A program made the translations under genes and the position numbers. The notes beneath the pieces are model-generated. The model did not search any database and was not told the DNA's origin. It saw only the letters and a program-made list of their open reading frames with translations. Shown here one piece after another: positions 1,249 to 22,416 of a stretch of DNA of 45,168 nucleotides. Within the stretch, counting starts at the first letter, position 1; every line of letters starts with the position of its first letter. Origin of the DNA: a virus; the IMG/VR virus record IMGVR_UViG_3300025674_000082, positions 1-45,168 of that record. One strand, 5' to 3'.

Positions 1249-4200
1249 ATGCCGAGTGAATTAACTTTTAACGCTACAGAGAGTTTTAGAAGAAAACTTT
1301 TAGTTAGAAATTTACCACCCTATAAAGAGGGGTACAAGGGTGATGAAAAACCTGGTGAATTTGAATTCTCGGTAAATGATATTGGGGTTATTGATTCGGG
1401 TAACATACAGGATATAGGTGATATACAGGAGAGTAAATTATACGTTAAAAATAAATATGGACCCGAAAACACTAGAGGGTTTGGAGATACCGTAAATATT
1501 AATAATAATAATCAAACGGAATCAAACTATGGTGAATATGAGTACTTTAGTTCTGAACCATCTATAGATACAGAAACATCACAAAAAAGAGCAGAGATAA
1601 AAAACCAATATCTTCCTGAAGAGGGTTACACAAAACTAATTAATATTGAAGATATTGAGAGGATTATAGAAAGTAGAGGAAATTACTACACGTTTATATT
1701 CTCAACGTATAACCCCGGAAGTATTTTAAATGATTTAAACCCACTCGGTTCTAATGGTAATTTATCACAAGATTCTGATTTAGCTAAAATAGGTGCGGAG
1801 TCATTAAAGAGTGAGTTTTTAAATAGAATTGCATTTGAGACTAGACAACAAACATTAGGTAGGGTTAATGCGCTTGACGCATTATCAGACCCTTTTGACG
1901 CGTTAGCAATTGTCACTGGAAATAGAAGTGTAATTGAAAAAGACTATCACATATCTGTACCTGAAAATATAATAGGTAAAGGGCTGGATTTTATAAGCAG
2001 AGTTACTGGTGTGTATTCACCGTACTCATGGATTGCGGGTGACTATTTTTCACCTGAAACAAAACAAACTTCAGAAGAGCAAGCAACAATAGGAGGACTA
2101 TTTTCTAAAAGAGATAAACTCAAAACACAGTCAAATAAGAGAGCTTCAGACCTGATGCTTAAAAGCACTGGTAAAGGACAGTCAGGGAGACTATTTTCTA
2201 ATTTATCGTACAATAAATTTAGACCGGACTATCAAGAGACGAATTCAAAAGCACCCGTTGGCGACTATTACTTAGGAAGTAAAATATTATCAGTACAAGA
2301 CATAATATCACCACCCGACGCTTTACCTGTGGATAATAGGGGTAATAAAATAGATATACCTGTAAGGGGTTATGGTGAGTTAGGTACCTTATATGAAAAT
2401 AAAGAAGCTACAAATAATTTTAGTTTCGGATTAAACGGTAGTAAGTTTATTCCAGGTAGTGAAACATATACTAATAGTAGTTATGATAGTAAAAGACTAC
2501 AAGGTGGTTTCACTTGGATTACAGACGAGTCATCTAAAGGGGCAAAAAAGGCGCCGACAAGAGGTGGAGGTGTAAACGGTCAAGTACAAACACAAGGTAA
2601 TGTTGATGACCTATTAAATAGCTTATCCAACTATGGAAGTACAACAAATGTTGATAATGGATATGACTCAACACCAAAATCAAGTTCATATAATTTTACT
2701 AAGGGGTCAATTTTAGATAATACCCAAAAAATAATATTAGCTTCAGACGCATTACAAGGACCAAAAAAATTACAACATGTCGGTAATGCTATTAATCAAA
2801 TCTCTAAAGTTTTTAATGATGGTACTAGAGAAATGACAAAAGGTTCTATGGTGTATAAATATGAAGATTTAAGTAGTGGTAGAATTGTAGGTACTGAATA
2901 CTGTAGGGTTTTTAGTAAAGATAGAACATATTCACATAATAAAGACTTACAAAAAGATAAAGGTGCAGTAAATGACTATAGAAAGTTTTCTAATTCTGTT
3001 TTAGATAACACATATAATTTAAATATTGCCCCTATGAGGGGTAAATCGTCCACAAACATAAAAGACGGAAGCGTAAAAAAGTACATGTTTTCAATAGAAA
3101 ACTTAGCATGGAGGACATCAAATAAAAAAGGATATACATACCAAGACTTAGCGGTTTGTGAAAGAGGACCAAATAAAGGTAGGATTATGTGGTTCCCACC
3201 TTACGACCTAAAAGTTTCAGAAACTAACTCAGTTAATTGGACAACTAATGAATTTTTAGGTAGACCAGAACCTATATACACATACAATAATACAATGAGA
3301 CAGGGTACACTAAGTTGGAAAATAGTTGTAGACCACCCATCAATCTTAAATGTTATTGTTGATAAGGAATTAAAAAATAAAACAAAATCTGAAATTAATG
3401 ATATAGTGGATTCTTTCTTTGCTGGATGTAGGGATTATGACATGTATGATTTAGCAACAAGGTTTCCTCAGTTTACTATGTCAGATATATATGAAATATT
3501 ATCAGAAACACAGAATGTTGAAACCGCATATACATATATGGAGGAAATACCTCGTGTAGATGTTATAGAAACTACACCAGTTATAGAGGATTATGTTAAA
3601 AAAACAGAACCTGAAGACTATAGTTTCTTTTATTATTTCCATCATGATATACCGGGTCCACAAAATGCGACCTCAACAACCGCAGATAAACCATACAGTG
3701 AATCTTTAAGTGATTACTTAGGTCTTAGGTCTAAGTACGAAGAAAGATGTAAAGACAGTTATAAGGAAGAAAGTTTATTTTTTATAGATAATTTTGTTAC
3801 AAAAATAGAACAAAATACAATTGAACTATTAAATAAAATAAAGGATGCGGTTAATGAAAAGGCTAAAATTAATATTGTTATTTATGGTTCTGCATCTGCA
3901 CCTGCATCCGAAACCTATAACTCAGCACTTTCTAAAAGAAGAATTAATAGTGTTAGAAGTTATTTAGAAAACCTAAAATTTGATAGTGAAAATAATACAC
4001 TAAAAAAATATATAGATGAGGGTTATGTTACAATAACCGAAAGTGCACAAGGAGAAAATGCAGATGTATACACACCCGATGGGGCGGGACCTTATGATTG
4101 TACAGAAAATTTCGCAGACGTAACCGACTCGATATACACCCCAACTGCTATGGCATGTAGGAGATGTAGAATAGATGTTCAAGAAACACCCCCATCACCC

Positions 4201-6189
4201 GAAGATAGAAAACCTGAACCAACATATGAAGAGATAGTAACTTTTGATGAAGTTGAAAGAACAGGATATACCTCAAGTCAAGTAGTAAGTTCAAGTGCGT
4301 CAACTAGAAACGATGTAGCGAAAAGAATACTTAGAAGATTATTAAGTGAATGTGATTATTTCGATATACTAAAAGAAGATAGTCCATTGGTGTATGAAGG
4401 AATACAAGATAAAATAAAATTCTTCCAACCGGCATTTCACTCTATAACACCCGAAGGACTTAATAGTCGACTTACTTTCTTACAGCAATGTTTAAGACCT
4501 GGAGACACCATACCCGTAATCGGTCCTGACGGTAAACCTAAAAAGGGTGGAATACAAAATACGGCATTTGGTGCACCACCAATCTGTATATTGAGAATAG
4601 GGGACTTTTACCATACTAAAATCGCCATAAATCAAATGTCAGTAAGTTTTGACCCACTAATACTTGATTTAAACCCGGAAGGTATTGGTGTACAACCAAT
4701 GATTGCAGATATTAGTATGTCTTTTTATTTCATTGGTGGTCAGGGATTACAAGAACCTGTTACAAGGTTACAAAATGCCTTATCATTTAATTATTATGGT
4801 AATACTGAAATGTATGACGACAGAGCAGTCCCGACTGAAGATAGGGATGAAGTCAATAATCAGGTAATGAGAAAAATTGAAGAAATTCAAGGATTCAGTG
4901 TAAAAGATGGTGAGGTTGAAAGACCTGAAGAGGCGGGAAACACTATAGGTGAGATAATAAGTACTGATTTAGATATAGAAAACAACACGGTTACGGGTCA
5001 AATAAAATACAAAGAAACTGTTAAGGAATTAGTTAAAAAGTCCGAGACCTATGCCCAAGGTATGGGAAGTACCCTTGAGGAAATATCAAAAAGTAATTCG
5101 TTAATAGGATTATATTATTTTAGTAAAAATACTAAATATTTTTATGGTGAAATGACGGGTTACTTTGATGGGAATGATGAATTTCCTATGAATATTTTTG
5201 GTAAACCAGAACAAATACAAAATGAAATGTCAACCTTATCCACAAATTTAATTAGTGATGTTGACAATAATTTAAATCCATTTTTAAAGGATATTGAACA
5301 ATTTGATTTTAAAAGTACTGATAAGAAAAAATTTAAAAGAAACCTTAAAACTTTTATAAATAATGCGGTTCTTGAGGCTGAAGAAAATTTAAACTCACAA
5401 ATTGGTTCATTAGTTGATAATCAGTTAAGTTTAGTGAGAGTTATAGATAAAATTAATTTAATTCATACAAAAACAGATGGGTTTAGAAATAAATCGGGCA
5501 AAAACATATTGTTTGATTTATCGGGTACGACAGACGTTGATGTATCATCAACACAAAGTAATACAATGGATGAATTCATTTATGATGTACAAACTGTTGG
5601 TATAGATTTAACTAATTTCTACATAAAAATAACATCAGATAGTGATGATTCATTAGTTAATAACACTAAAGATAATTTATATGAAGGATTTTTAACTGGT
5701 GATTTTGACACTGAACCACAGACAAGATTTTGTACTGTTGCTTATTCACATATAATTAATGACCCTGAAGGATTTGCGAACCAAATTTTAGGGGAAGAAT
5801 TAAAAGAAAAAACAGAGTGGGTTTCTTATGTAAATAAGATTATTTATGGTGTCGATGCGGTAACTATAGATATCGGTGTTGGAGCTATGTTTGAAGACGG
5901 TACAAACACAATAGAAGTTTTATCTCCCGATGTACCCGGTTTATTAGATGAATATAATAAATTAAAAACCGAGACATCAAAGAAAGTTAACACGTTTAAA
6001 AATGACAATAGTGTTAAAAAGTTCACATTATATGACCCATTTAATTTAGATAAAGAAAGGGTATTTGATTATATACAAGAAAATGATAGCACTTTCAATT
6101 CTACAAAAAATGACTACTTTAATAAAGTATATGAAGGTATTAACGGAGGAGACTTAAATAAATTTAATCAAAAATACACCTTTAATTAA
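1249..6189 (+). CDS. Large tail-tube-cap/baseplate protein with an inserted OmpA-like domain
   Basis: 1646 residues, probably a structural protein at the tube-baseplate junction. About residues 640-700 carry a conserved-looking block (GRIMWFPPYDL, then EPIYTYNNTMRQGTLSWKI, then VDHPS). About 1113-1193 carry a second block (LRIGDFYHTKI, DLNPEGIGVQPM, LQNALSFNYYGNTE). Between them, about 840-980, lies an OmpA C-terminal-like peptidoglycan-binding module: NSALSKRRINSVRSYL at about 889-904 follows the family pattern N-x2-L-S-x2-R-x3-V-x3-L. The usual GHTD segment reads GSAS, so the diaminopimelate-contacting Asp appears absent while the key Arg is kept. A Cys pair (CRRC) closes the module. The stop codon shares a base with the next start. 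The tail role is inferred from position and size; the OmpA-like call rests on the motif. Confidence 0.6.
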   Translation: MPSELTFNATESFRRKLLVRNLPPYKEGYKGDEKPGEFEFSVNDIGVIDSGNIQDIGDIQESKLYVKNKYGPENTRGFGDTVNINNNNQTESNYGEYEYFSSEPSIDTETSQKRAEIKNQYLPEEGYTKLINIEDIERIIESRGNYYTFIFSTYNPGSILNDLNPLGSNGNLSQDSDLAKIGAESLKSEFLNRIAFETRQQTLGRVNALDALSDPFDALAIVTGNRSVIEKDYHISVPENIIGKGLDFISRVTGVYSPYSWIAGDYFSPETKQTSEEQATIGGLFSKRDKLKTQSNKRASDLMLKSTGKGQSGRLFSNLSYNKFRPDYQETNSKAPVGDYYLGSKILSVQDIISPPDALPVDNRGNKIDIPVRGYGELGTLYENKEATNNFSFGLNGSKFIPGSETYTNSSYDSKRLQGGFTWITDESSKGAKKAPTRGGGVNGQVQTQGNVDDLLNSLSNYGSTTNVDNGYDSTPKSSSYNFTKGSILDNTQKIILASDALQGPKKLQHVGNAINQISKVFNDGTREMTKGSMVYKYEDLSSGRIVGTEYCRVFSKDRTYSHNKDLQKDKGAVNDYRKFSNSVLDNTYNLNIAPMRGKSSTNIKDGSVKKYMFSIENLAWRTSNKKGYTYQDLAVCERGPNKGRIMWFPPYDLKVSETNSVNWTTNEFLGRPEPIYTYNNTMRQGTLSWKIVVDHPSILNVIVDKELKNKTKSEINDIVDSFFAGCRDYDMYDLATRFPQFTMSDIYEILSETQNVETAYTYMEEIPRVDVIETTPVIEDYVKKTEPEDYSFFYYFHHDIPGPQNATSTTADKPYSESLSDYLGLRSKYEERCKDSYKEESLFFIDNFVTKIEQNTIELLNKIKDAVNEKAKINIVIYGSASAPASETYNSALSKRRINSVRSYLENLKFDSENNTLKKYIDEGYVTITESAQGENADVYTPDGAGPYDCTENFADVTDSIYTPTAMACRRCRIDVQETPPSPEDRKPEPTYEEIVTFDEVERTGYTSSQVVSSSASTRNDVAKRILRRLLSECDYFDILKEDSPLVYEGIQDKIKFFQPAFHSITPEGLNSRLTFLQQCLRPGDTIPVIGPDGKPKKGGIQNTAFGAPPICILRIGDFYHTKIAINQMSVSFDPLILDLNPEGIGVQPMIADISMSFYFIGGQGLQEPVTRLQNALSFNYYGNTEMYDDRAVPTEDRDEVNNQVMRKIEEIQGFSVKDGEVERPEEAGNTIGEIISTDLDIENNTVTGQIKYKETVKELVKKSETYAQGMGSTLEEISKSNSLIGLYYFSKNTKYFYGEMTGYFDGNDEFPMNIFGKPEQIQNEMSTLSTNLISDVDNNLNPFLKDIEQFDFKSTDKKKFKRNLKTFINNAVLEAEENLNSQIGSLVDNQLSLVRVIDKINLIHTKTDGFRNKSGKNILFDLSGTTDVDVSSTQSNTMDEFIYDVQTVGIDLTNFYIKITSDSDDSLVNNTKDNLYEGFLTGDFDTEPQTRFCTVAYSHIINDPEGFANQILGEELKEKTEWVSYVNKIIYGVDAVTIDIGVGAMFEDGTNTIEVLSPDVPGLLDEYNKLKTETSKKVNTFKNDNSVKKFTLYDPFNLDKERVFDYIQENDSTFNSTKNDYFNKVYEGINGGDLNKFNQKYTFN

Positions 6190-6506
6190 TGCAGTACTAT
6201 AATAGATATAAGGATTTTTTAATTAATGGTAAGCAAACTGTTGTGCCTTTTGTAAATATAGAATCTAAACCTACCGATAAAAGGTATATTTATCGTATTG
6301 GTAAAAGTAGGTTAGATAAGATAAGTTATGAGTTTTATGATTCACCATATTTTGGATGGTTAATATTGGCGGCAAATCCTCAGTACGGAGGATTAGAAAA
6401 TAACATTAATGATGGGGCTATTTTATTTGTACCTTTTCCATTAATTGACTCATTACAAGACTATAAAAAAGCATTAGATACACACTTCTTCTACTATGGC
6501 AGGTGA
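6189..6506 (+). CDS. gp53-like baseplate wedge subunit
   Basis: 105 residues beginning MQYYNRYKDF. The pattern YRIGKSRLDKISYEFYDSPYFGWLILAANPQ (residues about 34-64), followed by a GAILFVPFP segment, is the LysM-like fold typical of T4 gp53 and related small wedge proteins. In T4, gp53 joins wedges around the hub. The start overlaps the upstream stop by one base (TAATG) and the end overlaps the next gene by 11 bases, indicating translational coupling within one late operon. T4 gp53 is longer, so this may be a minimal version. Confidence 0.75.
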   Translation: MQYYNRYKDFLINGKQTVVPFVNIESKPTDKRYIYRIGKSRLDKISYEFYDSPYFGWLILAANPQYGGLENNINDGAILFVPFPLIDSLQDYKKALDTHFFYYGR

Positions 6507-9500
6507 TAAGTTATTTAACAACCAAAACGTATATGTTGAGACAGATTACGAAAACATTATAATTGTTGACCCAAATAAAGTTGTCGACAAAAATAATAAG
6601 GTGCAAGAAAGGCTGGTTAACCATGAAGAACTTGTAAAATATGTCAACTTAGAGGCGAAGGTTTTACCTAGAACTAAATTGGTGGTTGGAGATAACTTTG
6701 ACGATACCATAGAAAACCTAAGAATAGGTACTATGAGTAACGACGACCAAAGGAAGATAAATTTTGTGTTTCCTGATGATAAAGATGGATATGATACCTC
6801 TTGGACAGAAGAAATAACAGGAAATGATTCACTTCAAGGTAAGGGGTTAAATCAAGGACAAACAATAGAGGTGGGTAGTGGAGAAAACAAAAAAGTAATT
6901 AGAAAAATATCCAATCCTGAAGACACACAATTACTTGGTATCACAAATGTACAGGTAAAAATAAATACTGCATTTGCACCACAAGTAACCATTGAAATGG
7001 TGGATATACAAGGAAGAACATTGTTTGAACAAGGTGAAAACTCACCGTATAGTGCATTTATGCAATTACCATACCCACTATTCATTTTAACTATAAAAGG
7101 ATATTTTGGTAAGGCAGTAAAGTATGAATTAATGTTAAAAGACTTTAATGCCAGATTTGATTCTTCTGATGGTAATTATAAAATAACAACAAACTATATT
7201 GCTCGTACATACGCGATTTTATCTGACATATCTATAAATAATTTATATACCTTTCCTCATATGTTCCAAAAAACAGGTGAGATTGAAGGGAATACGACGA
7301 CACAAACCAACACTGCAGGACTAAACAACACAGAGATTAATACAAGACAATCCACTAAAGGTCTTGAAATATTAAAACAAGTTTATAGTGAATATAGGTC
7401 TAAAGGATTAATAGGGGACGACTTTCCAAATCAACAGGGATATCCATTAACCCTTTCTGTGTTAGAGAAAAAACTGGAGAAATTTGAAAATTACGTAATG
7501 CAGGCGTATGGTAAAGAAGATATGTCTGTTTTGAATGATATTGGTGCTTTTAGTAAAACTATAAATGATTTCAGGAAAAAAGTTTTTGGAGCCAACAGTG
7601 AATGGTTTTCTAAATATATTGACATTAATAATGTATTAATACCTTTACAAAATAATGAACCTGTACTTTATGGATTTAAAAAAGAAATTGATTTACAAGG
7701 TAAAAAAGATGCAATCGCCGAATTAAAAAATATAATTAATGAGTATAACGAATTAATTAATAATGACCCCACATTCGGTAGTAAAGGTAGTTGTGTAATA
7801 GACAATCAAAAAGTTGACAGCAGTCTATCCTTCAAAGTCGGGATAAATAATTTTTTAAAAAGTCTTGATGGGTTAGATAATATTGATATTAAATTAACTT
7901 ACGCTAAAAGGAATAATGTTATAAATAATGATGAATTAGTTTTAAACACATTTAGGTCAAACTTAGAAAAACAATACTTTATCGATAGTATGACATTGGA
8001 CGCTAAAACTTATGAAGTGGTAGATGATGGTAATAACTTATTTTTTAAATTTGGTAATATTAATGGAAGTGCTAATTTAGCGTCAAATACGATACTAAAA
8101 AAATTACAAGATTTAGAACAAAAATTCCAAGCTCAGAAAAAAATAATTGAAGATTTACTTTCGGAGGCATTAGCTAAGAAAATAAAATCACCGTCAGGTC
8201 TTGGATTCAACCCAACAATAAAAAATATTATGGCGGTAATAGCTGCCAATACCGACGCCTTTTTTAGGTTAATGGATAATGTTCATGAAAATTCTTGGAG
8301 ACAAAGAAATAATCCTATAAGGTTGAATGTTATATTGGGTGGAGATAAAAGTTTAGGTACTGATAGTAAAGATAATGTACAAGAAGTTGGTGATAATGGA
8401 TTACCGTCTGATACTAATGTTATTTACCCGTGGCCACAATACTTTGAAATAACTAATGATGAAAATGGAAACCCACAATATGAGGATAAATATCCAGGAG
8501 ACGTAAATTCAATTAACACCACACAGGGATATAGATATGATGTTTGGCCTGAGGTTGAATTTGTTGAAGAATATATAAGGGCTGCGATTGAGATAGAGGA
8601 ACAAGAAATTGACACAAACAACCCAAACGAAGCTAGCGTCACACCATACGTTTCAGTTAACTCTCTATTGTTTCCTTATAGTAATAATATATATGAAAAC
8701 AAATCTATAGTTCCATTTTTATATGAAATTCTTGAAAGAACCATGGTAGATTCGACATATACTAATTTATATAAAGATAGTGGTTATGAGGACTCAATAT
8801 ATGGTGTTATTGGTGATTTTGAAAACTTAAATATTAGTACCGCGTCTTCAGATTCATTGGAACTAATACAATTGTTAAAGAATTTTTCTTTTAGTTATGA
8901 AAATTTATTAAGATACCTTAAATCAACATCAGGTGGGGGAAGTTGGAATATGTTTGTTAGAAACGAATATATAACACCATATATAAAAAATTCACTCAAA
9001 AAAGATTATGGGTTATATAATAGTAGCTTTATATCTGATTATTCCACTAGTGTAGAGGGCTCTACAGAATCTGTTGAAAAATTAAGAAAATATTTAAAAT
9101 CTAATAAATCTAATGATATTTCATTTTTAGACAAATATCCGTTTACCGATTTAAATTGGTTAAAAAGTAACTTATCTGAAGGTGAAAAAATAAGTAGCGA
9201 GGTTGATGCAAATAATACATCTAACATTTATAATTTTATAGACACTAAAAAGACTATATCTACTTTTGACATAAATGAAAATGATTTAGACAAAAAAGTT
9301 TTTACATATTTTGAATGGATAACAAATGTAAGTGGAAATCCTGAACAAGGAGGTACACCACCAGAAGATTTAGTTAATACACAAGCAAATCCTAACGTAA
9401 CATCTAATAATGGTGCAATTAATTACTACCTAAGTAGAACAGAAAAAAAATTACTTTTAACTGAATCATATATTGACTATGGTAAAAATTATGATACCAC

Positions 9501-12500
9501 AGTTAATAATATAGTGGCAACACAAACCACGTCATTGTTAAACACACCATATTTTGTAAATGCCTTTATTAAAGGAGTAGAAAGACATAAAAACGGAGAA
9601 GAAAATCCATATGTTGCATTAGGGTACCTATACTTAAACTCGTTACCATTAGCGACACTTAGAGAAAAATTCAAAAGTTTTGGTGATGGTCTCACAACTA
9701 ATTTAGACTATATTTTTGCCGGTTTAAATAAATTTTCGGCAATACATAAATTACCATATCTTTGGATTTTAAAATACGGTTCTATTTGGCATAGATATAA
9801 AAAGTATATTGAAAATGGAAATGATATATTGAGTGATATATGGGAAGACTTTAATTTTGTAAATGCGTATGACCCTATAACAAATAATCGACAAAAAACA
9901 TATCTTATAAAAGATAATCTAAATTCAGATTATAATTATAAACAAAAAAATATAGAAAGTAGTCTACAAACTATCGATGATATACCGACTAACGTTGAAT
10001 ACGTAACATTAAATAACGGATTTTATCCTAAAATAGTTAATGATGTATATTGGTACTTTACGAAAAAGAATATTTTTAATGGATATACAAACCAAGAGGT
10101 TGAAGACGCATACGTAAACAGAAACTTTAAATCAATAAATGATTCGTCAAACACGTTAAATAAGAATAGAAAATACGACCCGCAAAACCCAAACAGAATC
10201 TTAAATGTCAATAACTGGTCTTATTATTTTGAAATTAAGAATAATACAGAATTTGAGGATTATGACAAAGATAGACTTTTAATTATACCGTCAGTAGGTT
10301 CAGTAAAATTTAATCAATCAAATTTTGAATGTTTTAATACACAAGGATTAATAACACAGGATATTATAGATAATCCCGCGGTTTATAACGGTACTTGTAG
10401 ATTCTTATGGGAATCCTCTAACTATGGTTATTTTGATAATGATTTAATAAATAAACCGGCGACTTTTGAATACCTTAAATATGTGGACCCTAAAAAGGAT
10501 AATAAACAAGCATTTAATCTTTTAGATAAAACAGACATTACAAAGTATTCAAATATTGATGATATGTTTAATGTTTTTACGAAAGAAATGTTGGATACCT
10601 TCGAGGAAAAGTTCTTAAATTTTTGTTTACCTAAAGATAAATTTGACTCCAACTCTATAGGTAGAGGTTCAGAAACATTTGAGGATTTTATAAGTCAACC
10701 ACAATATAAAGACTTGTTTATATATAACGAAGAGAGTGGAGAAAATGAACTACCAACAGAAGAGATTTTTAGATTAAGGGCTCTTTATGAAAACCAATCA
10801 CCATCATATGGAATTACACCAACAGTTAATCCTTATGATATTAGTTTATACGCAGTTTTAAAAAGTCTGTTAATTGTTAATAAACCAGAATTTAGTGAGA
10901 ATTTTTCAGAAAATTTAAATAAAATTTCTAAAAAACAGTTAGACTCATTTACATTACAACACAAAATAAATTTTTTAAATAAAGACTTAGTCTTAAAAAT
11001 AGGTAATCCTGGAAAGTATAATAGAAAGGTGTTTAATTCATTTAGTAATGAAGAATTGAACAATCCTGTTGATAAATATGAATTCGGTACTTACATAGGC
11101 AACACCCTACCTAGTAATAATAACAACATAACCCTAAATCAAAGTAAGAGTAATAATCCTGAGGCTTGGAATGCAATGTACCTATATGTTGGAGAATATT
11201 TTGACAATTATAATTTTATTTATAAAGACAGTGGTTCATATCTAACAGACTTTTTTATTGATATGGACGTTGAATTTAATGAAAGTAATGTCAAACTATT
11301 AAGTAATATTATTAAACTTTATGCGGATAAAAAACTAAAGACTCCAAACATAACACCACAAGAGTTCTACGACGAATTTAATGGGTTTATCGAAGACCAA
11401 AAAACGTTTCAAACGAATATTTTAAATCATACATTTATACAACTTAATAAAAATTTACCAAACGTAACATTCACACAAAAAGAACAAAGTAGTCTATCCG
11501 CGACTGATGGTGAGGTTGAAAAAGTTGGTTTGTGGAAAGCGTTCCAAACACTGAATGATAAATGGATTTCGGGTCAAGATTTTAAAACAAAAACAATATT
11601 TGAAGACTTCTTATTTTTAGATAGGGCAAATAGACCTGTTGGTGATAAGGTGATTATTAATATTGAAGAGTTAAGAAGCTTTTTGAAAAATAGAAATTCT
11701 GACATGAGTGTATACTCACTCATGGGTCATATATATGAAAAAAATAATTTTACATTTATGCCTACACCAGTATATACAAATTTCTATGGATTAAATGACA
11801 GGTCACCGGGGGCTGAAGGAATACCACAGGATATACCAAACGATACTTTCGGAACTTTTATGGAGGTAGATACTAGAGATACTAGACCAAGAATGTTGGC
11901 GATTTATGTTGGAGAACCATCGTCAAATTTAGATATGAAGGGTAATAAAAATGTTAGGAAAAATGATGATTCATTTGATATTACTAGACCTTCAGGGAAT
12001 CCATTAATTGAAAGTGGGACCAATAAAACGGATTACTCAGAAAGTAACAGGTGCGTTGGATTCAACGTGGACTTTGGGATAAGAAATCAAGGAATATTTA
12101 AATCAATATCCTTAGATATGCAACAACATAGAAATATTGCACCAACATTTCAAGTATTGGCGGATTTAGGGTCACAAGCATCAGGACAAAAAACTGCGCA
12201 ACAGTCACAATCCCTTTATAATTTCTACAGAAGTAAAAGTTATACTTGTCAAGTAACCTCTATGGGTAACGCCATGATACAACCCACCATGTATTTTAAT
12301 CTACAGAGGGTCCCATTATTTTATGGACCTTATTTAATAATGAGTGTAAGTCATACGATTAATTCTAGAGACTTTGTTACTCAGTTTGAAGGTATAAGAG
12401 TTTCAAAATATTCACTACAACAACCAGATAAATTAGTTATAAGTGTTAATAGAAAGATTTTAGAGTCATACAAAGATAAATTATTTAAACAAAGACAACA

Positions 12501-13137
12501 AGAGGAAAATTCAGGAACGACAGAAAATAGTACTGTTAATAACTCTATTGCTGTAGATGAGAGTAGATGTGAGGGACTGTCAAACTATCCACTCAAACCG
12601 TTCCTACCATTAGTATCTAGTAATGTTAATTCTCAGGATATTGTTCAATATCTTAATAATGTACAGACAATAAATGGGGATATGAGGGCATTTATATATG
12701 GTAATATTATGAAAGGTAAAAATTCTATAGAGGTACAGAATAATAACCTTATAAATGTAGGTATAAATAGTTTAAATACTACGTTAGCTAATACCTATAC
12801 TAATGGACAAGTATGTGTTAAAAAAGACAGTAATATTGGATGTATGGCCTCTTTTGATAGTATAGATGACTGCCTAAACTTAATAGTTGAAAAGTTTAAA
12901 AATCAACAAATACTATTAAATGACCTAAAACCACTATCAAACCCAGATTCAACAGATGGTAAAGCAATAGCAATGACTAGACTACTATATAAAAATATTT
13001 ATAAGTCAGACTTCACAGCCTCAAATGCTACAGAGATTAAAAAACAAATAAATGACGCTTTAGATAAAAACCCAAATTTAGAAGAAAACTACAATGAATG
13101 GATTAATATTTTTAAACGAGCGGTGAATACTCAGTAA
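6496..13137 (+). CDS. Giant baseplate hub-like protein (2213 aa)
   Basis: Residues about 150-250 (TNVQVKINTAFAPQVTIEMVD, QLPYPLFILTIKGYFGKAVKYELMLKDF) form a beta-rich block of hub type. Residues about 1852-1970 form a second block (CVGFNVDFGIRNQGIFKSIS, SKSYTCQVTSMGNAMIQPTMYF, LFYGPYLIMSVSHTI) resembling the gp27/gpD-like hub family. Some 1600 residues of Asn/Tyr-rich, low-recognition sequence separate them. After a Gln/Glu/Asn/Thr-rich linker, residues about 2027-2213 (RAFIYGNIMKGK, NNLINVGIN, CMASFDSIDDCLNLIVEKF) look like a lysozyme/glucosaminidase-type tail lysin, but a clear catalytic Glu is not visible. T4 gp27 is under 400 aa, so this protein is greatly expanded. The hub call is moderate; the lysin is tentative. 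Confidence 0.55.
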   Translation: MAGDKLFNNQNVYVETDYENIIIVDPNKVVDKNNKVQERLVNHEELVKYVNLEAKVLPRTKLVVGDNFDDTIENLRIGTMSNDDQRKINFVFPDDKDGYDTSWTEEITGNDSLQGKGLNQGQTIEVGSGENKKVIRKISNPEDTQLLGITNVQVKINTAFAPQVTIEMVDIQGRTLFEQGENSPYSAFMQLPYPLFILTIKGYFGKAVKYELMLKDFNARFDSSDGNYKITTNYIARTYAILSDISINNLYTFPHMFQKTGEIEGNTTTQTNTAGLNNTEINTRQSTKGLEILKQVYSEYRSKGLIGDDFPNQQGYPLTLSVLEKKLEKFENYVMQAYGKEDMSVLNDIGAFSKTINDFRKKVFGANSEWFSKYIDINNVLIPLQNNEPVLYGFKKEIDLQGKKDAIAELKNIINEYNELINNDPTFGSKGSCVIDNQKVDSSLSFKVGINNFLKSLDGLDNIDIKLTYAKRNNVINNDELVLNTFRSNLEKQYFIDSMTLDAKTYEVVDDGNNLFFKFGNINGSANLASNTILKKLQDLEQKFQAQKKIIEDLLSEALAKKIKSPSGLGFNPTIKNIMAVIAANTDAFFRLMDNVHENSWRQRNNPIRLNVILGGDKSLGTDSKDNVQEVGDNGLPSDTNVIYPWPQYFEITNDENGNPQYEDKYPGDVNSINTTQGYRYDVWPEVEFVEEYIRAAIEIEEQEIDTNNPNEASVTPYVSVNSLLFPYSNNIYENKSIVPFLYEILERTMVDSTYTNLYKDSGYEDSIYGVIGDFENLNISTASSDSLELIQLLKNFSFSYENLLRYLKSTSGGGSWNMFVRNEYITPYIKNSLKKDYGLYNSSFISDYSTSVEGSTESVEKLRKYLKSNKSNDISFLDKYPFTDLNWLKSNLSEGEKISSEVDANNTSNIYNFIDTKKTISTFDINENDLDKKVFTYFEWITNVSGNPEQGGTPPEDLVNTQANPNVTSNNGAINYYLSRTEKKLLLTESYIDYGKNYDTTVNNIVATQTTSLLNTPYFVNAFIKGVERHKNGEENPYVALGYLYLNSLPLATLREKFKSFGDGLTTNLDYIFAGLNKFSAIHKLPYLWILKYGSIWHRYKKYIENGNDILSDIWEDFNFVNAYDPITNNRQKTYLIKDNLNSDYNYKQKNIESSLQTIDDIPTNVEYVTLNNGFYPKIVNDVYWYFTKKNIFNGYTNQEVEDAYVNRNFKSINDSSNTLNKNRKYDPQNPNRILNVNNWSYYFEIKNNTEFEDYDKDRLLIIPSVGSVKFNQSNFECFNTQGLITQDIIDNPAVYNGTCRFLWESSNYGYFDNDLINKPATFEYLKYVDPKKDNKQAFNLLDKTDITKYSNIDDMFNVFTKEMLDTFEEKFLNFCLPKDKFDSNSIGRGSETFEDFISQPQYKDLFIYNEESGENELPTEEIFRLRALYENQSPSYGITPTVNPYDISLYAVLKSLLIVNKPEFSENFSENLNKISKKQLDSFTLQHKINFLNKDLVLKIGNPGKYNRKVFNSFSNEELNNPVDKYEFGTYIGNTLPSNNNNITLNQSKSNNPEAWNAMYLYVGEYFDNYNFIYKDSGSYLTDFFIDMDVEFNESNVKLLSNIIKLYADKKLKTPNITPQEFYDEFNGFIEDQKTFQTNILNHTFIQLNKNLPNVTFTQKEQSSLSATDGEVEKVGLWKAFQTLNDKWISGQDFKTKTIFEDFLFLDRANRPVGDKVIINIEELRSFLKNRNSDMSVYSLMGHIYEKNNFTFMPTPVYTNFYGLNDRSPGAEGIPQDIPNDTFGTFMEVDTRDTRPRMLAIYVGEPSSNLDMKGNKNVRKNDDSFDITRPSGNPLIESGTNKTDYSESNRCVGFNVDFGIRNQGIFKSISLDMQQHRNIAPTFQVLADLGSQASGQKTAQQSQSLYNFYRSKSYTCQVTSMGNAMIQPTMYFNLQRVPLFYGPYLIMSVSHTINSRDFVTQFEGIRVSKYSLQQPDKLVISVNRKILESYKDKLFKQRQQEENSGTTENSTVNNSIAVDESRCEGLSNYPLKPFLPLVSSNVNSQDIVQYLNNVQTINGDMRAFIYGNIMKGKNSIEVQNNNLINVGINSLNTTLANTYTNGQVCVKKDSNIGCMASFDSIDDCLNLIVEKFKNQQILLNDLKPLSNPDSTDGKAIAMTRLLYKNIYKSDFTASNATEIKKQINDALDKNPNLEENYNEWINIFKRAVNTQ

Positions 13138-19380: not shown

Positions 19381-20661
19381 ATGGAAAATTTAAATAATAT
19401 GTTAGAGAAGGATATACGCTATGTTATTAAAAGAAGCGGTAATAAAGTACCATTTGAAACCGAAAAAATAGAACGTGCGGTTTTAAAGGCAATGAATAGT
19501 GTTGGTATGATTGATGAGGATATGGCAGAAAAAATTGCCAGAATTTCTACAAAGGCAATATTCAGAAATAATAAAGATAGAGTACCGCACGTAGACGAAG
19601 TTCACGATATGGTTGAGAATAAGTTGATGGATAATGGACTTAATGATGTGGCAAAAGAATATATTGTTTATAGGGCAAAACACATGCCGAATATCTTTGC
19701 AAAAAGAGTAAATCTAAAACCATATGATTATCCTAATTTAAACGATTACGTGGATGCTATACGACATTCTTATTGGGTTCATACAGAGTTTAACTATACA
19801 TCAGACATTCAAGATTTTAAGGTACACCTTAACGAAAAAGAAAGGTCTGCGGTCCAAAGAGCAATGTTAGCAATTTCTCAGATTGAAATTGCGGTAAAGA
19901 CATTTTGGGGAGATATATACAAGAGAATGCCAAAACCTGAAATTGGTAATGTTGGCGCTACTTTCGCAGAATCGGAAGTTAGACACGCAGATGCTTACTC
20001 ACACCTAATCCAATTATTAGGACTTAATAAAGAGTTTGAGAACTTATTACAGGTTCCCGCAATTCGTAGAAGAATTAAATACTTGGAAAAATCAATAGTA
20101 AACTCCAAAGCGGTTGAAAATAAAGAGTACTTTGAATCAGTAATTTTATTTTCAATGTTTGTCGAGAACGTATCACTATTCTCGCAGTTTTTAGTTATTA
20201 TGTCATTTAACAAACATAAAAATAAATTAAAGGGTATAAGTAACGCTGTTGAGGCCACCTCAAAAGAAGAAAATATTCATGCCGAATTTGGGTTTGATTT
20301 AGTAAATCTAATTAAATCAGAAAATCCTGATTGGTGGACAGAAGATTTGGTTGAAGATTTAATAGACGCAACTATTGAGGCTTATGACGCTGAAGAGGAA
20401 ATAGTGAATTGGATATTTGAAAACGGCGACTTAGACTTTTTGACTAAAAAACAAACTATGGAGTTTATAAAACACAGATTTAACGTATCATTAAATTCAA
20501 TTGGTATTGATAGTATTTTTAAGGTTAACGAAACTTTATTGTCAACAACTGAATGGTTTGACGATGAAATCTTAACCACAAAACATACTGACTTTTTTAA
20601 TAAGAGAAGTATTAACTACAGTAAAAAATCAAAATCAATTACATCTAACGACTTATTTTAA
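19381..20661 (+). CDS. nrdB: Ribonucleotide reductase small subunit NrdB with N-terminal ATP-cone
   Basis: 426 residues. Generates the oxidising cofactor that starts dNTP synthesis in partner NrdA. Residues about 11-103 are an ATP-cone (VIKRSGNKVPFETEKIERAVLKAM, VDEVHDMVENKLMDNG, EYIVYRAKH), normally found on NrdA, where it senses ATP/dATP. The ferritin-like core follows, with likely metal ligands Glu169, Glu199, His202, Glu262, Glu297 and His300, and Tyr206 at the radical-tyrosine position. The first ligand is Glu where E. coli has Asp. The tail (RSINYSKKSKSITSNDLF) keeps a Tyr and a hydrophobic tip for NrdA docking. NrdB with this fusion is known in the flavobacterium Leeuwenhoekiella blandensis, where the cofactor is dimanganese (class Id). 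Gene order nrdB-nrdA. Confidence 0.93.
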   Translation: MENLNNMLEKDIRYVIKRSGNKVPFETEKIERAVLKAMNSVGMIDEDMAEKIARISTKAIFRNNKDRVPHVDEVHDMVENKLMDNGLNDVAKEYIVYRAKHMPNIFAKRVNLKPYDYPNLNDYVDAIRHSYWVHTEFNYTSDIQDFKVHLNEKERSAVQRAMLAISQIEIAVKTFWGDIYKRMPKPEIGNVGATFAESEVRHADAYSHLIQLLGLNKEFENLLQVPAIRRRIKYLEKSIVNSKAVENKEYFESVILFSMFVENVSLFSQFLVIMSFNKHKNKLKGISNAVEATSKEENIHAEFGFDLVNLIKSENPDWWTEDLVEDLIDATIEAYDAEEEIVNWIFENGDLDFLTKKQTMEFIKHRFNVSLNSIGIDSIFKVNETLLSTTEWFDDEILTTKHTDFFNKRSINYSKKSKSITSNDLF

Positions 20662-20677
20662 TAATTAACTATACACA

Positions 20678-22384
20678 ATGAAAGAGAGAAAACCATTTGA
20701 TTGGATTAACGAGGAGTCTATTACATTTCTTCGTAGAGGATATTTAAGTGAGGGTGAAGAACCTTTAGAAAGAATTAGAACAATTGCGGACCATGCTGAA
20801 AAACTTTTAGGTATGGAAGGTTTTTCCGATAAATTTTATGAATATATGAGTAAAGGATGGTACTCGTTGTCATCACCTGTATGGGCCAACTTCGGTAAAA
20901 AAAGAGGGTTACCAGTAAGTTGTTTTGGTTCTAATATTGGAGATAATATAGAATCAATTCTTTATACTCAGGCGGAAGTTGGTGAAATGAGTAAAATGGG
21001 TGGTGGTACTTCAGGTTACTTTGGTAATATCAGAGAACGTGGTGCAGAAATTACAGATAATGGACATGCACCAGGTGCGGTTCACTTTATGAATCTATTT
21101 GAAAGTGTTGTGGACAATATCTCACAAGGGTCTACTAGAAGAGGTAGATTCTCACCATATCTACCCGTTGAACATCCTGATATTATGGAGTTTTTAGAAA
21201 TTGGTACCGAAGGTTTCCCTATTCAAGACCTAACACATGCGGTTACAGTCACTGATGATTTTATGTATGACATGATTGAGGGAGACGAAGAAAAAAGAGC
21301 AATATGGGCTAAGGTAATCCAAAGAAGAGGGGAGATTGGTTATCCGTATATTATGTTTACTGATACCATGAATAAAAAGTCACCTGAAGTATATCAAGAT
21401 AAAGGAGCTAAAATATATAACTCTAACCTTTGTTCTGAGATTGCACTACACAATTCAGAAGAAGAGTCGTTCGTTTGTGTATTGTCGTCAATGAATTTAC
21501 TTCATTATGATGAATGGAAAGATACTGATGCAGTTGAAACTATGACTTACTTTTTAGATGCGGTCGTTACTGAGTTCTTAACTAAAATTGAAGACATAAG
21601 AGACAATGGAACTATTGAAGGTAAGAGAGGGTTCTTTTATTTAGAAAAAGCATACAATTTTGCTAAGAGACAAAGAGCACTTGGATTAGGAGTTTTAGGA
21701 TGGCATTCTTTACTACAATCAAAAGGATTGGCTTTTGATACTGTAGATAGTGCTAAATTAAACGTAGAAGTGTTTAAACTAATTAAAGAAAAATCGTATA
21801 AGGCTTCTGAAGAATTGGCAAATATTTTTGGTGAACCTGACTATCTTAAAGGTTACGGTAGAAGAAATGTAACATTAAACGCCATTGCTCCTACCACATC
21901 ATCGGCATTTATTTTAGGTCAGGTGTCACAGTCAATTGAACCTATTTGGTCTAATTGTTATGTTAAGGATGTTGCTAAGATGAAAGTTACTATTAAAAAT
22001 CCTGTTCTTGAAAATCTTTTAAAAGAAATTGATAAAGACAATAAAGAAGTATGGGATAGTATTAAGAAAAAAGATGGTTCTGTACAACATTTAGATTTTT
22101 TAAGTAATGAACAGAAAAACATATTTAGAACTTTTGCAGAAATTAATCAAGCCTCAATCATTAATCAGGCGGCGATAAGACAAGACTTTATTGACCAATC
22201 ACAGTCTTTAAACTTAATGATTTCTCCTGATATGCCAACAAGAGATGTGAATAAGCTACTGATAGACGCGTGGAAGTTAGGAGTTAAAACACTCTACTAT
22301 CAACACTCAATGAATTCCGCTCAAGCTTTCGCAAGGAAAAAACTAAATCTAAATGATTTACAATGTGTAGCCTGTGAAGGTTAA
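20678..22384 (+). CDS. nrdA: Ribonucleotide reductase large subunit NrdA lacking an ATP-cone
   Basis: 568 residues, short for NrdA because it begins straight in the catalytic domain; the allosteric ATP-cone is on NrdB instead. Reduces ribonucleotides to deoxyribonucleotides. Active-site residues are Asn250, Cys252 and Glu254 (NLCSEIAL), with the redox Cys pair Cys82 (PVSCFGSN) and Cys267 (SFVCVLSSMN). The radical-transfer Tyr pair is at about 540-541 (TLYYQHS). The C-terminal CVAC carries the two cysteines (563, 566) that re-reduce the active site via thioredoxin or glutaredoxin. The gene starts 16 bases after nrdB and is followed by a strong terminator, closing the replication/nucleotide block. 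Confidence 0.95.
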   Translation: MKERKPFDWINEESITFLRRGYLSEGEEPLERIRTIADHAEKLLGMEGFSDKFYEYMSKGWYSLSSPVWANFGKKRGLPVSCFGSNIGDNIESILYTQAEVGEMSKMGGGTSGYFGNIRERGAEITDNGHAPGAVHFMNLFESVVDNISQGSTRRGRFSPYLPVEHPDIMEFLEIGTEGFPIQDLTHAVTVTDDFMYDMIEGDEEKRAIWAKVIQRRGEIGYPYIMFTDTMNKKSPEVYQDKGAKIYNSNLCSEIALHNSEEESFVCVLSSMNLLHYDEWKDTDAVETMTYFLDAVVTEFLTKIEDIRDNGTIEGKRGFFYLEKAYNFAKRQRALGLGVLGWHSLLQSKGLAFDTVDSAKLNVEVFKLIKEKSYKASEELANIFGEPDYLKGYGRRNVTLNAIAPTTSSAFILGQVSQSIEPIWSNCYVKDVAKMKVTIKNPVLENLLKEIDKDNKEVWDSIKKKDGSVQHLDFLSNEQKNIFRTFAEINQASIINQAAIRQDFIDQSQSLNLMISPDMPTRDVNKLLIDAWKLGVKTLYYQHSMNSAQAFARKKLNLNDLQCVACEG

Positions 22385-22392
22385 AAAATAAA

Positions 22393-22416
22393 ACCCGTCA
22401 ACTGACGGGTTTTTTT
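22393..22416 (+). terminator. Rho-independent terminator after nrdA
   Basis: ACCCGTC (22393-22399), loop AACT and GACGGGT (22404-22410), then six T. It separates the replication block from the wedge genes. Confidence 0.88.

Follow-up and report, generated by a model that had tools for sequence, protein, structure and literature searches.

The phage analyzed here very probably encodes all of a class Id ribonucleotide reductase (RNR; NrdAi/NrdBi), the activity of which is switched by an ATP-cone on its NrdB subunit. The sequence, a virus record from IMG/VR, was 45,168 bases long with a G+C content of 33%, and this whole stretch is referred to as the window. The source was a tailed phage of marine type, the baseplate and replication genes of which were T4-like. 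The gene content, the domain order, the ligand and cone-contact residues, the predicted fold, the homology and the selection on the cone were established directly.

The nrdB gene (positions 19381-20661, plus strand) encoded a class Id (NrdBi) radical-generating subunit of 426 aa with an N-terminal ATP-cone, and was followed after 16 nt by nrdA (20678-22384, plus strand), which encoded an NrdAi-type catalytic subunit of 568 aa without an ATP-cone. An earlier note on this DNA had given the same coordinates for the pair. The beta gene preceded the alpha gene, an order which goes with ATP-cones on beta (PMC9669993). An intrinsic terminator (22390-22413, plus strand) started 6 nt past nrdA and was composed of a perfect 10-bp stem (AAAACCCGTC / GACGGGTTTT), a 4-base loop and a T run. 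It marked the end of the replication and nucleotide module, beyond which came the baseplate genes (gp25, gp6-like). The hairpin was conserved, as a similar stem followed nrdA at a distance of at most 110 nt in 48 of 63 relatives. No tRNA was found in the 45,168-nt window or in six relatives examined, and no phage was matched when 12 kb of the window were searched by megablast. Two big proteins, of 1646 aa (1249-6189) and 2213 aa (6496-13137), were encoded upstream of the RNR. PHROG matches were obtained neither for the 1646-aa protein nor for five proteins between 30528 and 38018.

The ATP-cone (19414-19683, plus strand; NrdB residues ~12-101) was delimited by Pfam, residue alignment and predicted fold. 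The Pfam ATP-cone model (PF03477) matched residues 14-101 with an E value of 4.1e-21 and 75.7 bits, the cut-off being 25.8 bits; Ribonuc_red_sm matched residues 109-383 (E 2.6e-57). The cone residues were Lys17-Arg18, Phe25, Lys29-Ile30, His75, Glu79, Ala91-Lys92, Tyr94, Ile95 and Tyr97-Arg98, of which Lys17-Arg18 represented the Lys-Arg near the cone start that is a hallmark of ATP-cones. In the AlphaFold2 model of NrdB (53 sequences, mean pLDDT 82.9), residues 11-100 were predicted as a beta-hairpin cap and four helices (pLDDT about 72-91), with strands 14-16 and 22-24 and helices 27-40, 46-60, 71-84 and 88-100, which is the ATP-cone topology. Both the Pfam match and the predicted fold thus agreed with the earlier note, which had described NrdB as opening with a complete ATP-cone and had proposed modelling of the N-terminal ~100 residues as the check; the observation as a whole was far beyond chance. 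In a Foldseek search with the model, the four chains of 5OLK ranked first. The core alone was superimposed on 6SF5 with an rmsd of 1.2 A, and the full-length model on 5OLK with 9.6-10.4 A, therefore the orientation of the cone relative to the core was not fixed by the model.

Further, the selection on NrdB was compared between its parts. Within the phage clade the pN/pS values were 0.166 for the cone, 0.097 for the core and 0.018 for the C-terminal tail, values obtained on 14 diverse members with synonymous sites near saturation, so that dN/dS was rough and only a relative comparison was intended. The tail (20575-20658, plus strand; residues 399-426), expected to bind NrdA, was the most conserved part of NrdB, and the protein was modelled as disordered from residue 402 on (pLDDT below 50). 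The cone was under purifying selection, therefore it was not decaying. It could be argued that the cone is a non-functional relic that came with the gene from a bacterium, since phage NrdBi without a cone exist (loci L156 and L240-L260) and the domain is hence dispensable in phages. Such an origin was judged very improbable, because the pN/pS of the cone was low over diverse members, Lys17-Arg18 was invariant and every member examined had a full-length cone.

The metal-binding core of NrdB (19690-20574, plus strand; residues 104-398) carried the ligands Glu169, Glu199, His202, Glu262, Glu297 and His300, together with Lys173, Trp176, Tyr206 and Thr293 at the metal site. The corresponding set in the NrdB of L. 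blandensis (LbNrdB) is Glu170/Lys174/Trp177/Glu200/His203/Tyr207/Glu263/Thr294/Glu298/His301 (PMC6754362, PMC5794259), and all ten class Id positions were the same in both proteins. NrdBi is defined by an Asp-to-Glu exchange of the first ligand and a Tyr-to-Trp exchange seven residues on, and a Lys near the first ligand marks the NrdBi subgroup with demonstrated Mn dependence (PMC6754362); these signatures were all present as Glu169, Trp176 and Lys173. The top eight matches in a PDB sequence search with NrdB (5olk, 6sf4, 8dq3, 6cwo/p/q, 8dq4/5) were all class Id, the best being 5OLK, L. blandensis NrdB, with E 1e-158 across residues 6-426. Class Ia/Ib/Ic structures matched much worse (class Id 1e-86 to 1e-158, E. 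coli R2 4e-5), and class Id structures were also the closest by fold in Foldseek. Glu169 as the first ligand and the presence of Tyr206 had been read correctly in the earlier note, and the fit to the dimanganese group suggested there was borne out, as judged from a ligand set identical to that of LbNrdB.

In the alignment, Tyr206 took the position of the Tyr that bears the radical in class Ia/Ib, which might suggest an enzyme of that kind with a tyrosyl radical. However, Tyr207 of LbNrdB is held at too great a distance from the metals (PMC5794259, PMC6754362), and the same Tyr is unused in both LbNrdB and F. ignava NrdB (PMC5794259, PMC6754362), hence Tyr206 was no argument for a tyrosyl radical. 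Considering also the class Id marks Glu169/Lys173/Trp176 and the poor E value of E. coli R2, a class Ia/Ib assignment was hardly tenable.

The NrdA subunit matched large-chain RNR domains only in Pfam and NCBIfam TIGR02510 (NrdE-prime) above its cut-off at residues 5-568 (E 1e-226); no ATP-cone was detected by Pfam, as stated in the earlier note. Its best PDB match was 6dqx, F. johnsoniae NrdA (E 4e-205). The key residues Cys82, Asn250, Cys252, Glu254, Cys267 and Tyr540-Tyr541 were present, as was a C-terminal CxxC (Cys563/Cys566). NrdAi proteins are recognized by a short length (median 564 aa), the absence of a cone, the catalytic cysteines and a C-terminal CxxC; the 568-aa phage protein lacked a cone and had the cysteines and the CxxC in place.

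It was proposed that the phage-made NrdA/NrdB pair would provide more dNTP during phage DNA replication. NrdB would carry a Mn2(IV,III) oxidant and no tyrosyl radical, and the electron hole would be passed to the active-site cysteine of NrdA. With ATP on the cone, NrdB dimers would form active alpha2beta2; at high dATP, two NrdB dimers would join by their cones, via helices 3 and 4, into beta4, which would bind NrdA unproductively. The metal, the dATP inhibition and the tetramer of the phage RNR are suggested here by analogy with L. blandensis and F. ignava. In LbNrdB, ATP leads to active alpha2beta2, and dATP above about 30 micromolar leads by cone-cone contacts to beta4, which yields inactive alpha2beta4/alpha4beta4 (PMC5794259). 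The residues of the tetramer interface in LbNrdB are Asp73, Met80, Lys89, Ile92, Ile93 and Arg95 (PMC5794259), and their equivalents in the phage NrdB were Asp76, Met83, Lys92, Ile95, Val96 and Arg98. The Tyr that touches the second dATP in cones binding two dATP (PaNrdA, LbNrdB) is probably Tyr94 here, a placement that starts from PMC8772380. Tyr94 and the helix 3-4 interface residues fit the two-dATP cone type at the residue level only. As the interface, the cone and the catalytic residues of NrdA were kept and the cone was not decaying, dATP control via NrdB was the most likely mechanism by homology. The dATP feedback through the small subunit proposed in the earlier note would accordingly remain the most plausible, by the same homology with LbNrdB. 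No biochemistry of any phage NrdBi was found in the literature.

Against the proposed switch stand a hinge unlike that of the only solved relative and the advantage that a phage may draw from escaping dATP inhibition. The RNR of T4 is not known to be inhibited by dATP. The cone of T4 NrdA has Lys-Ser where the aligned cones show Lys-Arg, which may relate to the dATP insensitivity of T4. If the proposed control operates, a large environmental phage clade retains the dATP switch on a class Id RNR under purifying selection, unlike T4 and the cyanophages treated in PMC6370689, which presumably evade inhibition by dATP.

The phage NrdB differed from bacterial homologues in the hinge between cone and core, the length of which was counted as the residues between YxxYR of cone helix 4 and NIF of the core. 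The hinge (19675-19689, plus strand; residues 99-103, AKHMP) was 5 residues long in the window, and the viral clade showed this length at 82/82 loci, in contrast to 9 residues in LbNrdB and in 40/40 readable bacterial cone-NrdB. A separate draw of 296 Bacteroidota genomes contained NrdBi in 22, 5 of them with a cone, and the hinge was 9 residues long in all five. The stretch lost from the phage hinge holds an Arg (Lb Arg102) common to all bacterial sequences read. A hinge of 5 was also recorded in Salicola phage SCTP-2 and viral locus L239, and a hinge of 9 in viral loci L164 and L165; hence, the four-residue-shorter hinge was met only in viruses among the sequences compared. The short hinge was not accepted as the mark of a single viral clade, since the window clade, SCTP-2 and L239 were grouped at only 88/68 with long branches. 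A scan with SCTP-2 NrdB for further short-hinge viruses gave one weak match, to the ATP-cone only. Additionally, position 75 was His in the viral clade and SCTP-2, and Gln in all bacterial cone-NrdBi examined. By our own placement, His75 would correspond to Gln56 of A. aeolicus R1, a residue in contact with the nucleotide ribose (PMC8772380). No previous description of the 5-residue hinge or of His75 was found in the literature consulted.

These differences bear on the possibility that the enzyme is class Id with a retuned cone, where dATP binds but leads to another oligomer or to weak or no inhibition, so that dNTP synthesis continues. The loss of about one helical turn together with the Arg shared by the bacterial sequences read, as well as a His at the ribose-contacting position, would favor a retuned cone. 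However, the aligned residue of E. coli NrdA is also a His (His59), and that enzyme is nevertheless inhibited by dATP; moreover, the other nucleotide-contact and tetramer-interface residues were kept under purifying selection. Retuning was thus regarded as possible but unlikely, and the cone-switched class Id enzyme was preferred. The shorter hinge and His75 may alter the inhibited oligomer. It is a rather doubtful proposal that the viral NrdBi, with His75 and a hinge shortened by one helical turn, is a variant in function whose dATP control by the cone was rebuilt for lytic replication, either through another inhibited oligomer or through a relaxation of the inhibition. The natural pair of 5- and 9-residue hinges could show how the ATP-cone geometry sets the inhibited oligomer.

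The architecture with the cone on NrdB was already known in bacteria and in phages. The L. blandensis NrdAi/NrdBi (5OLK, 6SF4/5; PMC5794259, PMC6754362, PMC8350387) resembled the phage enzyme in domain order, including an NrdA without a cone. LbNrdB (427 aa against the 426 aa of the phage protein, to which Foldseek aligned it with 56% identity) had the same metal-site and tetramer-interface residues, whereas it differed in its hinge of 9, in Gln at the position of His75 and in being bacterial. The earlier note had cited the cone swap as known for some Bacteroidota enzymes of the class Id type, and the similarity to such an enzyme was borne out by the full-length homology to L. blandensis NrdB; that the cone had moved from NrdA to NrdB is a published view of the subclass (PMC5794259), which was not visible in the sequence itself. 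Class Id NrdB of F. johnsoniae and Aggregatibacter (6CWO, 8DQ3) shared the core fold and the ligand set but had no ATP-cone. The cone-bearing bacterial NrdBi that were read came from Flavobacteriia, Patescibacteria, Gammaproteobacteria, Spirochaetota and Bacillota.

Among phages, 71 INPHARED records covered at least 80% of NrdB. Among them, the Silviavirus phages of staphylococci (Remus/Romulus and kin), Sporosarcina phage Lietuvens and Salicola phage SCTP-2 (GenBank) encoded NrdBi with an N-terminal cone, 46-51% identical to the window NrdB, with nrdB ahead of nrdA; the hinge was 9 in the Bacillota phages (Silviavirus, Lietuvens) and 5 in SCTP-2, as in the window. IMG/VR contained 470 relatives of NrdB, and the 80 that were read showed 85-97% identity. 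Subclass Id viruses have been reported as abundant in the ocean (PMC12918982, 2026 preprint).

In the NrdB core tree the window was placed in a phage-only clade (100/100), inside a 27-row group (96/94) to which a Paceibacterota pair, Flavobacteriia and Hydrogenovibrio-type Gammaproteobacteria also belonged. Rows with long branches (a Thermus plasmid, Maribacter phage Molly, Rhizobium phage N34 and SCTP-2) had been left out of this tree, and the placement of the phage clade changed with sampling. None of the three candidate sisters was rejected by AU tests (Bacteroidota p 0.35, Gammaproteobacteria p 0.42, Paceibacterota p 0.57). In the NrdA tree a distinct phage clade was obtained, not adjoining Bacteroidota. 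Since none of the three was rejected and the NrdA clade was not beside Bacteroidota, the RNR phylogeny named no host, and the assignment of a host phylum from the NrdB tree, where sampling shifted the clade, was rejected. The earlier note had taken the enzyme to point to the host phylum, which was not supported, as three sister groups were left and cone-NrdBi occurred in several phyla and their phages.

A Bacteroidota host was nevertheless probable from other genes. The closest phage relative of the recombinase was that of Flavobacterium phage immuto (44%), and the gene order of immuto equaled that of the window: ssDNA-binding protein, recombinase, 5'-3' exonuclease, DnaB helicase, nrdB and nrdA. 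Immuto's protein was also among the few relatives found for the gp6-like baseplate protein (28%). The RNR pair of immuto (NC_055915) occupied the same syntenic slot, but its NrdB (289 aa) had no cone and Asn replacing Lys, and the identities to the window were 33% (beta) and 41% (alpha). As the immuto RNR (L263:6895-9480) differed from that at 19381-22384, different RNR pairs occupied the same slot, which suggests an in-place RNR replacement between related phages.

Several unusual proteins were observed among the relatives. NrdA of SCTP-2 (903 aa, L152:7258-9966) and of Paenibacillus pini (894 aa, L110:6255-8936) were ~330 aa longer than usual, perhaps owing to an intein. An Aerococcaceae NrdB (L111:4710-6236, 509-codon frame) had ~83 extra residues ahead of the cone, which may be a fused glutaredoxin like that of Facklamia ignava. 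At locus L276 of a Bacteroidota genome (G257, from contig C65:6566-7543 onward), a class Id NrdB that lacked a cone was in frame with NrdA in a single open frame, 933 codons as reported and 839 in the DNA read, an apparent natural beta-alpha fusion of bacterial origin.
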